From the NCBI RefSeq assembly GCF_009765985.1, contig NZ_LMUM01000034.1, positions 698,910 to 762,909 on the forward strand: a stretch of DNA of 64,000 bases, read 5' to 3'. This DNA comes from Acidobacterium sp. S8 (GTDB lineage Bacteria; Acidobacteriota; Terriglobia; Terriglobales; Acidobacteriaceae). Position numbers and translations under genes: made by a program. The notes under the pieces are model-generated. The model did no database searches, was not told the origin of the DNA, and worked only from the letters and a program-made list of their open reading frames with translations. Positions 25,705 to 43,466 of the stretch are shown in pieces; positions within the stretch are counted from its first letter, which is position 1; each line of letters starts with the position of its first letter.

Positions 25705-25780
25705 TCCCACCCTTTGCTGCGCAAAGGATGGGGCACCCAGCAGAATCCCACCCTTCGCATTCGCTCAGGATGGGGCACCC
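25705..25780. repeat. Two tandem REP-like palindromes (family 2)
   Basis: TCCCACCCTTTGCTGCGCAAAGGATGGGGCACCC and TCCCACCCTTCGCATTCGCTCAGGATGGGGCACCC. Confidence 0.8.
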
Positions 25781-25801
25781 GGGCGGTTAAGATCGACAGT
25801 C

Positions 25802-39701: not shown

Positions 39702-39742
39702 TCCCACCCTTTCGCAAAGTGCGCGAAAGGATGGGGCACCCA
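39702..39742. repeat. REP-like palindrome (family 2)
   Basis: TCCCACCCTTTCGCAAAGTGCGCGAAAGGATGGGGCACCCAG. Confidence 0.8.
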
Positions 39743-39786: not shown

Positions 39787-40362
39787 ATGGTGGCGGAGCA
39801 GGAAGCGGTGATGACGCGTTCACCCAGGGTTCAGAATCAACTCGGCCGATCCGCGGTGCGAATGTTTGCCGCCAATGATCGCATGAACCAGATGCTGATC
39901 GAGCACCTTGACCCCGCGGCGTGGAGAGCCAAACCGCCGGGCAAGGTGCGTCCGATTGCGGCGATTTTTACGCATATGCACAATGTTCGCTGCAAGTGGG
40001 TGAGGCTGACGGCTCCGCACCTGAAGGTTCCGGCGCTGCTCAATCGTGCGCATTGCACTCCCGAGGAGGTTCGCGCTGGATTGGCGGAGAGCGCCGCTCG
40101 CTGCGTGGAGATGCTGGCGGAAGCGTTTGGTGATGGTGAGGGTCGGATTGAGGAATTTCGCAGAGATGGCTGGGCTCCGGCGTGGCCGGTTGGCGTGGAG
40201 ATGCTTTGCTACATGCTCGCTCATGAGGCTCATCATCGCGGGCAGGTGCTGATGCTGGCGCATCAGCTTGGGTTTTCGCTGGAGTATGAGGTGGCGGATG
40301 GGATCTGGAATTGGGAGAAGCTTTGGAGGGAGTGTGGGGCGGATGGTGGACCTGGTTCTTGA
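39787..40362 (+). CDS. DinB-family protein
   Basis: ANDRMNQMLIEHLDPAAWRAKPPGKVRPIAAIFTHMHNVRCKW...HEAHHRGQVLMLAHQLG; metal-binding His pattern. The true start may be the internal ATG of MTRSPRVQN. Confidence 0.82.
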   Translation: MVAEQEAVMTRSPRVQNQLGRSAVRMFAANDRMNQMLIEHLDPAAWRAKPPGKVRPIAAIFTHMHNVRCKWVRLTAPHLKVPALLNRAHCTPEEVRAGLAESAARCVEMLAEAFGDGEGRIEEFRRDGWAPAWPVGVEMLCYMLAHEAHHRGQVLMLAHQLGFSLEYEVADGIWNWEKLWRECGADGGPGS

Positions 40363-40404: not shown

Positions 40405-40432
40405 TCCGGGGACTGAAGTCCCCGGCTTCTAC
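40405..40432. repeat. REP-like palindrome (family 1 variant)
   Basis: CCGGGGACTGAAGTCCCCGGCTTCTACC. Confidence 0.75.
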
Positions 40433-40482
40433 CGGGAGGCGCGAAAGCGCCTCTTTTGTTTACGACCTCGAAGATTCTGCTT

Positions 40483-40517
40483 TCCCACCCTTTGCTTCGC
40501 AAAGGATGGGGCACCCG
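40483..40517 (+). repeat. REP-like palindrome (family 2) upstream of RAYT
   Basis: TCCCACCCTTTGCTTCGCAAAGGATGGGGCACCCG. Confidence 0.85.
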
Positions 40518-40612
40518 GCATAACGATTACGTTTATCGATGGAACTTAAACAGCATTGCCGAAAAATCTGGATTTTCGGCGCGAGCCAATTACTGAGGCT
40601 TAAATGCTGGTT

Positions 40613-40652
40613 GGGTGCCCCATCCTTTCGCGGTTTTTGCGAAAGGGTGGGA
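40613..40652 (-). repeat. Inverted-orientation REP-like palindrome (family 2) upstream of RAYT
   Basis: GGGTGCCCCATCCTTTCGCGGTTTTTGCGAAAGGGTGGGA. Confidence 0.85.
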
Positions 40653-40719
40653 GACGACTACTCTTCGGTAATCTTTTACCAAGTTGTCTTAGGTGAAAAG
40701 ATGAGAACCGAACCTCGTC

Positions 40720-41235
40720 ATGCCTAAAGGACTTGTCCGATACTACGGTGGAGACGATCTCCATTTCATCACTTTTAGTTGCTACCATCGGCTTCCTTTT
40801 CTGGATACCGCCGAAGCGCGGAGTGTCTTTCTGGAAATGCTCGAAGACGCTCGACGAAAATATCTGTTTCGCGTGGCTGGATACGTGGTTATGCCGGAAC
40901 ATGTTCATCTGCTTGTGAGCGAGCCGCAGATCGGAACTCCTTCCACGGTTCTACAGGTTGTGAAGCAGCGTACCGCGAGAAAGATTCACGATGTCATTCG
41001 AGGGCAGATGTGGCAGCGGCGTTTTTATGACTTCAACGTTTTCACTCAGGAGAAGGTGACTGAGAAATTGTTTTATATGCATGAGAATCCGGTGAAGCGC
41101 GGGCTGGTTTTGTCTGCGGAGGAATGGAGTTGGAGTAGTGCGCGGTTCTATCGTTCAGGGGAGCAGGGTGTGGTGAAGATTCTGGATGAGAAGATTGTTG
41201 CTTGTCAGGAATTGACTCGAGTATCGCTTGTTTAG
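40720..41235 (+). CDS. REP-associated tyrosine transposase (RAYT, Y1_Tnp/IS200-like)
   Basis: MPKGLVRYYGGDDLHFITFSCYHRLPFL...GYVVMPEHVHLLVSEP (HUH) ...FYDFNVFTQEKVTEKLFYMHENPVKRGLV (catalytic Tyr region)...WSWSSARFY. Confidence 0.93.
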   Translation: MPKGLVRYYGGDDLHFITFSCYHRLPFLDTAEARSVFLEMLEDARRKYLFRVAGYVVMPEHVHLLVSEPQIGTPSTVLQVVKQRTARKIHDVIRGQMWQRRFYDFNVFTQEKVTEKLFYMHENPVKRGLVLSAEEWSWSSARFYRSGEQGVVKILDEKIVACQELTRVSLV

Positions 41236-41246
41236 ATTTTTTGCTT

Positions 41247-41280
41247 TCCCACCCTTTGCTTCGCAAAGGATGGGGCACCC
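41247..41280 (+). repeat. REP-like palindrome (family 2) immediately downstream of RAYT
   Basis: TCCCACCCTTTGCTTCGCAAAGGATGGGGCACCC, same as 40483. Confidence 0.85.
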
Positions 41281-41307: not shown

Positions 41308-41336
41308 AAAAGCCCGGCGCTTGGCCGGGCTTTTTG
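41308..41336. terminator. Bidirectional intrinsic terminator between RAYT and the radical SAM gene
   Basis: AAAAGCCCGGCGCTTGGCCGGGCTTTTTGC. Confidence 0.75.
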
Positions 41337-41375: not shown

Positions 41376-43466
41376 CTAGTCACCCATGACTTCTTCGGTA
41401 GCGGGGGCTGGCTTTGGGGCCGGGGCGATGGAGTTGATGGAGACGAGGCCTTCGACTGGCTTTTCGCCGAGGACGTGCTCGCGATAGAGCTTGGCCATCT
41501 GCGCGTTTTCGGCGTCCTGCTTGAGCTTGGCGTCGCGGGCGCGAATCTTTTCTTCGCGCGAGTTCTTGGCTACGCCCAGCTTGTCGAGGGTGTCGTTGGC
41601 GGCGGCGTTCACGTGCTCGTCGTTCAGGAGCAGCGTGTGCTGCGCGTCGCCCATGCCCACCTTCTTACCACCGGCGAAGATTTCGTGACGGCCATGCTCG
41701 TCGTACCACTTGGTGAGCGTGGAGGTCATATGCATCTTCTCGATGATGTTGCGCCAGCCCACGCCCGTGTTGTAGGCGCAGAAGCTGATTTCGCCTTCCT
41801 GGGTGGCGTAAGGGATGATGCACTGCTCGGTGCGGCGGAAATCGTAGTTGAAGAGATCCTGGAACCACATGCCGGCGATGAAGAGGAAGTTCCAGCGATC
41901 GGCGCGACGCATTTCGATGTCGGCCATGGTGCGGTCAGCCTTCACCGAGCCGTACTTGCGGTTGGTGGAGCCGGAGAACTTGTCGAACTTCTTCAGAAGG
42001 TCGCCGATGCGCATGTGCGTGGGCGCCTTGGTCGGATCATAGTTCCGCAGAAGCGCGAGCGTGATGCCGACGAGCGAGAGGAACTTGCCGCGAGCGGCAT
42101 CGTTGACCTTGGCTACGTCTTTGGCGAGGCGATCGGCGTTGAGGAAGGCGGTGACGGGCACGGCTTCCTTGGTTTCCTTGTCGATCATGATGGCCATGCC
42201 GATGCCGCAGTTCGGGTGGCATCCGCAGGAGATCTGTCCCCAGTCGCGGTCAGGGCCGTGGACGAGGTCGGCGAAGTCGGAGAAGGTCGAAATGAAGCTG
42301 ATGGGGAACCAGTCGCGGGTCGGCTCGCCGATGCCGGTCTGGTTCTTCACGTCGTGCGCGAGGTGCGAGAGGGTGTAACGCTGGGCTTCGCGGCGCTCAT
42401 CGCTAACTTCCTCGTCGCGGCCGGTAAAGGATACGGGCTGGAAGCTGAGGAAGTTGATTTTCTTGGGGTTGTCGAGGGCGAACTGGATGATGTGGCCGAC
42501 CTGCTCGTTATTGATGCCGTTGATGATGGTCGTTACGGGAACGATGTCGACACCGGCTTCGTGCAGGTTGTGGATGGCCTGGAGCTTCACATCAAAGAGG
42601 TTACCGACCTTGCGGTGCGAGTTGGCAGCGTTGCCGATGCCGTCGAACTGGAGGTAAGCGTAACGCAGACCGGCTTCGGCTGCGGCGCGGCTGAACTCCT
42701 TCGACTTAGCGAACTCGATACCGTTGGTCGCGGCCTGGACGGACTCGTAACCGACCTTGCGGGCGTAGGCGACCGCGTCGAGGAAGTAGGGCGAGAGCGT
42801 CGGCTCACCGCCGGAGAACTGGACCGACATCTGACGACGCGGCTTGATGGTGATCGCGTTGTCGAGCATGGTCTTGATTTCGTCCCACGTCAGCTCGTGG
42901 ACGAAGCCAACCTGGTTGGCGTCCATGAAGCAGGGGTCGCACATCATGTTGCAGCGGTTGGTCAGATCGATGGTGAGGACCGAGCCGCGGCCATGGGTGA
43001 CCGTCGAAGTGCCGTGGTTGTGAAGCTTTTCGTCGTTGTGGGCCTTGATGTCGCGGCCGGGGAAGACCTCTTCGAGGTGCTTGAAGAAGGCGGTGTCGAT
43101 GGACATGACGTCTTCGAAGTGGCCGTGCTTGGGGCAGTCCTTAACCATAAGGATCTTGCCGTCGCGCTCGATGATCTGCGCCTTGATCTCGCCAACCTTC
43201 TCATTCAGAAGGATTTCGTGAGGCAGCTTGCCGTCGATGATCTGCTGGCGGATCTCAGGGATGCACTTGGGGCAAAGGGAATCGGTGGTGCGGGGCCATC
43301 CAAGGGGGGGCTTTTCCTTCTGGTAGGACTTCAACAGAGGCTTGTCGGACCACTTGGGGGTGAATGATTCGTTGGGGCTGATGCGGTTCAGTCTCTCGAA
43401 GACGGACCATGCGCCTTGTGCGGCGATGGTGACCGCGCGCTCTGCGTATTTGGTGGCTTTCGACAT
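41376..43466 (-). CDS. Multi-cluster radical SAM protein, candidate tetraether/membrane-spanning lipid synthase (Tes/MSS)-like
   Basis: N-terminal zinc-site-like SLCPKC...KDCPKHGHFEDV; TIDLTNRCNMMCDPCFMDAN (CX3CX2C); VQFSGGEPTLSPYF; CGCHPNCGIG; TEQCIIPYATQEGEISFCAYNTGVGWR. The radical SAM call is firm, the Tes-like call is motif recognition. Confidence 0.8.
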   Translation of the reverse strand: MSKATKYAERAVTIAAQGAWSVFERLNRISPNESFTPKWSDKPLLKSYQKEKPPLGWPRTTDSLCPKCIPEIRQQIIDGKLPHEILLNEKVGEIKAQIIERDGKILMVKDCPKHGHFEDVMSIDTAFFKHLEEVFPGRDIKAHNDEKLHNHGTSTVTHGRGSVLTIDLTNRCNMMCDPCFMDANQVGFVHELTWDEIKTMLDNAITIKPRRQMSVQFSGGEPTLSPYFLDAVAYARKVGYESVQAATNGIEFAKSKEFSRAAAEAGLRYAYLQFDGIGNAANSHRKVGNLFDVKLQAIHNLHEAGVDIVPVTTIINGINNEQVGHIIQFALDNPKKINFLSFQPVSFTGRDEEVSDERREAQRYTLSHLAHDVKNQTGIGEPTRDWFPISFISTFSDFADLVHGPDRDWGQISCGCHPNCGIGMAIMIDKETKEAVPVTAFLNADRLAKDVAKVNDAARGKFLSLVGITLALLRNYDPTKAPTHMRIGDLLKKFDKFSGSTNRKYGSVKADRTMADIEMRRADRWNFLFIAGMWFQDLFNYDFRRTEQCIIPYATQEGEISFCAYNTGVGWRNIIEKMHMTSTLTKWYDEHGRHEIFAGGKKVGMGDAQHTLLLNDEHVNAAANDTLDKLGVAKNSREEKIRARDAKLKQDAENAQMAKLYREHVLGEKPVEGLVSINSIAPAPKPAPATEEVMGD

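Follow-up and report, generated by a model that had tools for sequence, protein, structure and literature searches.

The window examined here, by which we mean the whole 64-kb stretch of DNA that was analysed, contains an open reading frame for a small HUH/Y1 transposase, RAYT-A, which lies between a DinB gene and a gene for a radical SAM protein and has copies of one palindromic element, the family 2 REP, on both sides (Table 1). The preliminary description had taken the gene for a Y1/HUH RAYT on the strength of its EHVHLL and YMHENPVKRGL strings, and both the ORF and the protein profiles bear this reading out. EHVHLL is the HUH motif and YMHENP, within YMHENPVKRGL, the Y1 motif, so that RAYT-A has an HUH/Y1 core with the class 2 Y-motif, Y---NP. 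It scored 100.5 bits against the NCBIfam equivalog NF047646 (REP_Tyr_transpos; cut-off, 80 bits) and 37.6 bits against PF01797 (cut-off, 23 bits); its score against the IS200 profile NF033573 was 32, under the cut-off of 55. The closest solved relative by sequence is 4er8, the structure of Escherichia coli TnpA_REP with REP DNA, and 4er8 was also ranked first by Foldseek (E value = 8.7 × 10−10, TM = 0.71 to 0.74) when the query was an AlphaFold model of RAYT-A with 38 aligned relatives as input (pLDDT = 86); the predicted model thus has the TnpA_REP fold. Equivalents of HUH, Y115, and N119 are retained in the alignment. RAYT-A occurs once in the genome, its nearest paralogue being 48% identical, a low copy number unlike that of insertion sequences. 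The neighbouring radical SAM protein scored 331 bits against the profile of the tetraether lipid synthase Tes (NF045702), which does not reach the cut-off of 450, and its gene may be an acidobacterial gene for membrane-spanning lipid synthesis.

Table 1. RAYT-A, its neighbours, and the REPs found in the window
Feature	Position	Strand	Evidence
RAYT-A, TnpA_REP-like HUH/Y1 ssDNA transposase, 171 aa	40720..41235	+	ORF, profiles, fold
Family 2 REP of the short-loop form; its minus-strand head is GGGTGC	40483..40516	-	
Family 2 REP, long-loop form, closest REP upstream of RAYT-A, head outward	40613..40652	+	
Family 2 REP, closest downstream of RAYT-A, head outward, 34-mer identical to that of 40483..40516	41247..41280	-	
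Fourth family 2 REP, beyond the DinB gene from RAYT-A	39702..39741	-	
Tandem pair of family 2 REPs, TTT-type and TGA-type	about 25705..25782	-	
REP GGTAGAAGCCGGGGACTTCAGTCCCCGG with a GTAG head, a member of the family found beside RAYT-C at another place in the genome	about 40407..40436	-	
DinB gene	39787..40362		
Radical SAM protein gene	41376..43466	-	
T-run terminator-like hairpin, distinct from the REPs	about 41310..41335		

On the strand that starts with GGGTGCCCC, a family 2 REP consists of the head GGGTGC, a loop that varies, and the stem CCCATCCTTT..AAAGGGTGGG, in which one pair is T-G. As single-stranded DNA these hairpins fold with energies of -9.7 to -13.9 kcal/mol (z = -3.5 to -5.6); an Rfam scan of the part of the window between 38 and 44 kb gave no match. 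The head GGGTGCCCCATCCTTT was matched seven times in the window at no more than three mismatches, against 0.35 matches expected, and finding three copies of family 2 no more than 350 bp from RAYT-A is far above chance (Poisson, P value = 7.5 × 10−7). The three REPs that had been described around the gene, in both orientations, were placed correctly to within one base (one ends at 40516, not 40517), and the 34-mer TCCCACCCTTTGCTTCGCAAAGGATGGGGCACCC that two of them were said to share is exact at 40483 and at 41247. RAYT-A is flanked by inverted REPs, the plus-strand copy at 40613 and the minus-strand copy at 41247. The canonical GT(A/G)G tetranucleotide is not found 5′ of the REP foot, where the head is GGTGC. 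Judged by its protein and by the arrangement of its flanks, 40720-41235 is a RAYT, one to which the canonical head does not apply.

The identity between the copies at 40483 and 41247 stretches to 47 nt at 96%, so that the gene could also be read as an autonomous IS200/IS605-like transposon whose ends are direct repeats of 47 nt, at 40475 and 41239. The position of the gene between two such direct copies fits this reading, as does a 76% identical RAYT on another contig in the congener G061. We nevertheless consider it very improbable, since each genome has one copy and the nearest paralogue is as distant as 48%, the usual arrangement of the flanks is inverted rather than direct, the NF033573 score stays below its cut-off, and the gene is syntenic in the congener G062, with the same neighbours. 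The multicopy unit, direct end hairpins, and IS200 profile match of an IS200/IS605 element were not found for RAYT-A.

A count over the 5.44-Mb genome confirmed that family 2 is dispersed: the 16-nt head has 54 exact copies and 95 when as many as two mismatches are allowed (a reversed-pattern control gave none), an abundance that fits a REP flanking a RAYT. The context of the copies was taken from sampled stretches holding 74 copies with the head NGGTGCCCCATCC, 66 of which have a matching 3′ arm (TTT class, 54; TGA class, 11). These 66 are mostly intergenic and avoid long ORFs, an ORF of at least 150 aa lying over the REP in 26 of them compared with 86% of random points. Nearly every copy is a singlet or one of a tandem pair; the sole inverted pair within 300 bp is the one beside RAYT-A, and the other close pairs are tandem. 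In this genome family 2 is therefore not made up mainly of close inverted doublets moving as a unit, as REPINs are.

Three PF01797 genes are present in the genome (RAYT-A, RAYT-B, and RAYT-C), and each has its own flanking REP family. RAYT-B, which is 48% identical to RAYT-A, is flanked by GGGTGCCCCAGGTTCGCGAAGCTAACCTGGG (family B, with 36 exact copies in the genome and 58 near ones), and RAYT-C (G000:C5:46365) is flanked by GGTAGAAGCACCGGCCTTTAGGCCGGTG (the GTAG-headed family C; 61 near copies). Family 2 flanks only RAYT-A among the three, and within 350 bp of these genes there is one exception to the separation of families, the GTAG-headed REP about 290 bp upstream of RAYT-A. With three RAYT-REP pairs that differ in head or stem, a clean test of cross-specificity is possible within a single genome.

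We assessed whether REPs of this kind accompany related genes in two sets of loci: 80 named RAYT loci, all from Acidobacteriota, in which flanks beside the gene and 2 kb away were scored by one rule, and 78 A/B-type RAYT genes of the bacterial family, a set that partly overlaps the first and is thus not fully independent of it. In the family set, GGTGC-CCC hairpins lie within 350 bp of 61 of the 78 A/B-type genes but of only 2 of 23 more distant C-type genes; in the named set they adjoin the gene at 59 of the 80 loci. Beside the genes of the named set there are 133 hairpins in 54 kb, whereas the 85 kb of control flank contain 9, which amounts to a 23-fold difference in density (2.45 versus 0.105 per kb). 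Loci with REPs on both sides have them inverted with the heads outward in 31 of 41 cases (family set) and 40 of 46 (named set), and the head is GGTGC in 110 of 128 and 119 of 133 flanking REPs, respectively. The stems vary from locus to locus: over their first 12 bases, the upstream and downstream REPs of one locus differ by 0.72 edits in the named set, against 4.5 between loci (0.7 to 0.8 against 4.1 to 4.5 over both sets), and none of 5,000 shuffles matched the stems within loci as well. In the family set, RAYT distance and REP distance are significantly though weakly correlated (Mantel r = 0.20, 0 of 2,000 permutations), most strongly among RAYTs that are more than 80% identical. These results show that acidobacterial Y1 genes of the RAYT-A type have REP-like partners with a constant head. 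They also supply a natural set, spanning the phylum, in which the head is fixed and the stem varies, so that recognition of the head and of the stem can be separated.

The same survey bears on whether the REPs lie beside RAYT by accident and serve as transcription terminators or as hairpins at mRNA ends. Their mostly intergenic positions and stable hairpins would suit such a role, which we hold to be extremely improbable: generic terminators would not be expected to be 23-fold enriched next to RAYT genes, with stems matched to the locus, the REPs have no U-tract, and the T-run hairpin downstream of RAYT-A is a separate structure. Terminators were ruled out as the main explanation, the stems being more alike within RAYT loci than between them.

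How RAYT-A might act on its REPs can be proposed from relatives that have been studied. The TnpA_REP of E. coli takes single-stranded REP as its substrate and cuts it at CT with GTAG as guide, and in Marinomonas the head selects CT or CA through cross-complementarity (PMC8266576); Quentin et al. tied the guide-contact region to the head type as well (PMC6006769). RAYT-A would bind the single-stranded REP hairpin on the strand starting with GGGTGCCCC, its predicted substrate being the single-stranded hairpin GGGTGCCCCATCC, and would recognise both the family-specific stem and the GGTG(C) head, which is constant and would act as the guide. Cutting would adjoin the hairpin, the likely sites being CC or CT directly 5′ of the head and, on the 3′ side, CA at a distance of about 5 nt from the foot. 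CC or CT directly precedes the head in 43 of the 66 family 2 copies, compared with 3 to 9 of 66 at neighbouring offsets, and CA is found at +5 after the foot in 22 of them. The CC or CT could pair with the GG of the head and the CA with its TG, which would make GGTG the equivalent of the guide, and such sites would fit the chemistry of E. coli TnpA_REP with a changed guide. The cut REP would be passed to other intergenic sites by strand transfer, and the RAYT gene would be inherited mainly vertically and could be lost, with its REPs then persisting and decaying.

The residues equivalent to E100, H101, and R104 of the E. coli protein, with which it contacts GTAG, are D, F, and an aromatic residue in most members of the group, and D, F, and F in RAYT-A. 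This change to F101 and an aromatic residue 104 is common to the whole clade and may be one event; inside the clade, residue 101 correlates weakly with the first base of the head (Fisher P value = 0.01, not corrected for phylogeny). We offer only tentatively the broader proposal that the acidobacterial RAYTs are a class with a different guide, characterised by a GGTG(C) head, an F101/aromatic pocket, diverging stems that separate co-resident pairs, and cuts at CC/CT and CA.

We then turn to RAYT-A as the putative parent locus of the family 2 REPs on this chromosome, a claim that stood up in part. In its favour, family 2 flanks RAYT-A alone in this genome, and RAYT-A orthologues in two congeners are likewise flanked by the family 2 REP. 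The orthologue in G062 lies in the same DinB-RAYT-radical SAM locus, and that in G061 is at a different location. Against it, two genomes, G060 and the more distant G034, carry REPs of the family 2 type and no A-type RAYT. The single-contig genome of G060 has instead a C-type gene and a B-like RAYT, 53% identical, that has REPs of its own. The preliminary description had named equal abundance of family 2 in relatives without this RAYT as a finding that would refute the claim, and G060 shows just this: it has 40 exact copies compared with 54 in this genome, and 76 compared with 72 at no more than one mismatch, so that the family is equally abundant there. In G060, tandem direct arrays of family 2 with spacings of about 85 bp and 180 bp were observed on C1 near 1626068 and 775253 (L206 and L207). 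Family B behaves in the opposite way to family 2 and is abundant only where RAYT-B is present, three congeners without RAYT-B having 1, 3, and 0 exact copies (two of these assemblies are incomplete).

Equal abundance in G060 suits the view that RAYT-A is associated with family 2 but is not the source of most of it, the copies being relics from the genus ancestor that were spread by an ancestral or different RAYT. So do the REP positions that this genome (G000) and its congeners have in common (sites L024/L201 and L152/L081/L097), as well as the conserved locus in G062 and the displaced one in G061. The positions L024 (1500-1539) and L201 (4170-4208) mark one intergenic site that is occupied by a REP in two congeners, the stem differing between them by a compensated change from TTT..AAA to TAT..ATA; the TAT stem is a common variant in the second genome of this pair. 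Shared positions and the compensated change together indicate that part of family 2 is inherited. However, most of the sampled congener REP loci match no REP locus of this genome, as if spreading had continued after divergence; 54 exact heads speak against old decay; and an ancestral RAYT would in any case belong to the RAYT-A orthogroup. We regard the relic origin of most copies as a serious possibility, though one we would not favour. Loss of the RAYT in G060 after the REPs had spread is the simplest account and, because some REP positions are shared among congeners, the likelier one, and RAYT-A as the parent locus remains plausible and partly supported. Because family 2 remains where its RAYT is missing, whereas family B occurs only together with RAYT-B, REP persistence can be tested within one genus.

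A comparable situation appears in a distant genus. G034 has 60 to 78 REPs of the family 2 type, and no Y1 gene was found in its genome, which is 99% complete. Many of its REPs form REPIN-like inverted doublets with heads about 100 to 126 bp apart and a conserved interior (L183-L187), an orphan REPIN population with no detectable Y1 transposase. These REPs fit RAYT loss after spreading, because the same REP, down to its loop, flanks a RAYT in G074, a genus-mate with 170 copies. RAYT presence did not predict REP number in this genus (median of about 10 with RAYT and 6 without). On such comparisons, acidobacterial REPs can apparently outlive their transposase; REP classes that persist after RAYT loss were reported earlier in pseudomonads (PMC3686654). 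In G059, a member of the family without a RAYT of the RAYT-A type, IS200 has expanded: PF01797 was matched 48 times there, and many of these matches score as full-length IS200-type genes.

We conclude that the locus is very probably a REPtron, that is, a single-copy and probably domesticated HUH/Y1 transposase (RAYT, TnpA_REP) with its own REPs. The pairing of RAYT-A with its cognate REPs is well supported at the level of sequence and predicted structure, and its parts have each been observed: the gene, the fold match, the hairpins, inverted flanks with heads that point outward, numerous copies scattered over the genome, and a separate REP family for each RAYT. Weighing against this reading are the family 2 copies of G060 and the REPINs of G034, which lack a matching RAYT, the GGTGC head, the changed residues 101 and 104, and the weakness of the Mantel correlation. 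The pairing of RAYTs with REPs is itself already established; what is new is a non-GT(A/G)G head across a phylum together with an altered guide pocket. With the transposases of IS200/IS605 elements (IS608 and ISDra2), the locus shares the HUH/Y1 fold and single-stranded hairpins at the flanks, but RAYT-A is not multicopy, its ends are inverted rather than direct, and its score lies below the IS200 cut-off. E. coli TnpA_REP (4ER8; PMC8266576, PMC6006769) is the best match in both fold and sequence, with W94 and Q95 retained in addition to HUH, Y115, and N119, whereas most members have F101 and an aromatic residue in place of the guide-pocket residues H101 and R104 (F and F in RAYT-A), and the irregularity of the REP stem is a G-T pair instead of the AA/GC bulge of the E. 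coli REP.

RAYTs were defined by Nunvar in 2010 as Y1 genes between inverted REPs with GT(A/G)G heads, and those that qualified came only from gammaproteobacteria (PMC2817692). The locus resembles the gammaproteobacterial REPtrons (PMC2817692, PMC3686654, PMC3116915) in that its Y1 gene occurs once and lies between inverted REPs, the REPs are scattered over the genome in many copies, each RAYT has its own REP class and co-varies with it, and REP classes are left behind when a RAYT is lost; unlike them, it has the head GGTGC in place of GT(A/G)G, its family 2 REPs are mostly singlets and not REPIN doublets, and its host belongs to the Acidobacteriota. Di Nocera in 2013 assigned Y1 genes of T. 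saanensis, K. versatilis, A. capsulatum, and G. mallensis, tsa392, aba1552, acp645, and gma794 among them, to a TIRYT group of their own, treated its flanks as TIRs unrelated to GTAG REPs, and stated that TIR families coexist in few genomes (PMC3733652). The genes described here resemble TIRYTs in their phylum, in forming a sharply defined Y1 group, and in their flanking inverted repeats, and K. versatilis has one repeat family; they differ, by comparison with the published description only, in that their flanks are head-plus-hairpin REPs present in tens of copies, with a head common to the group.
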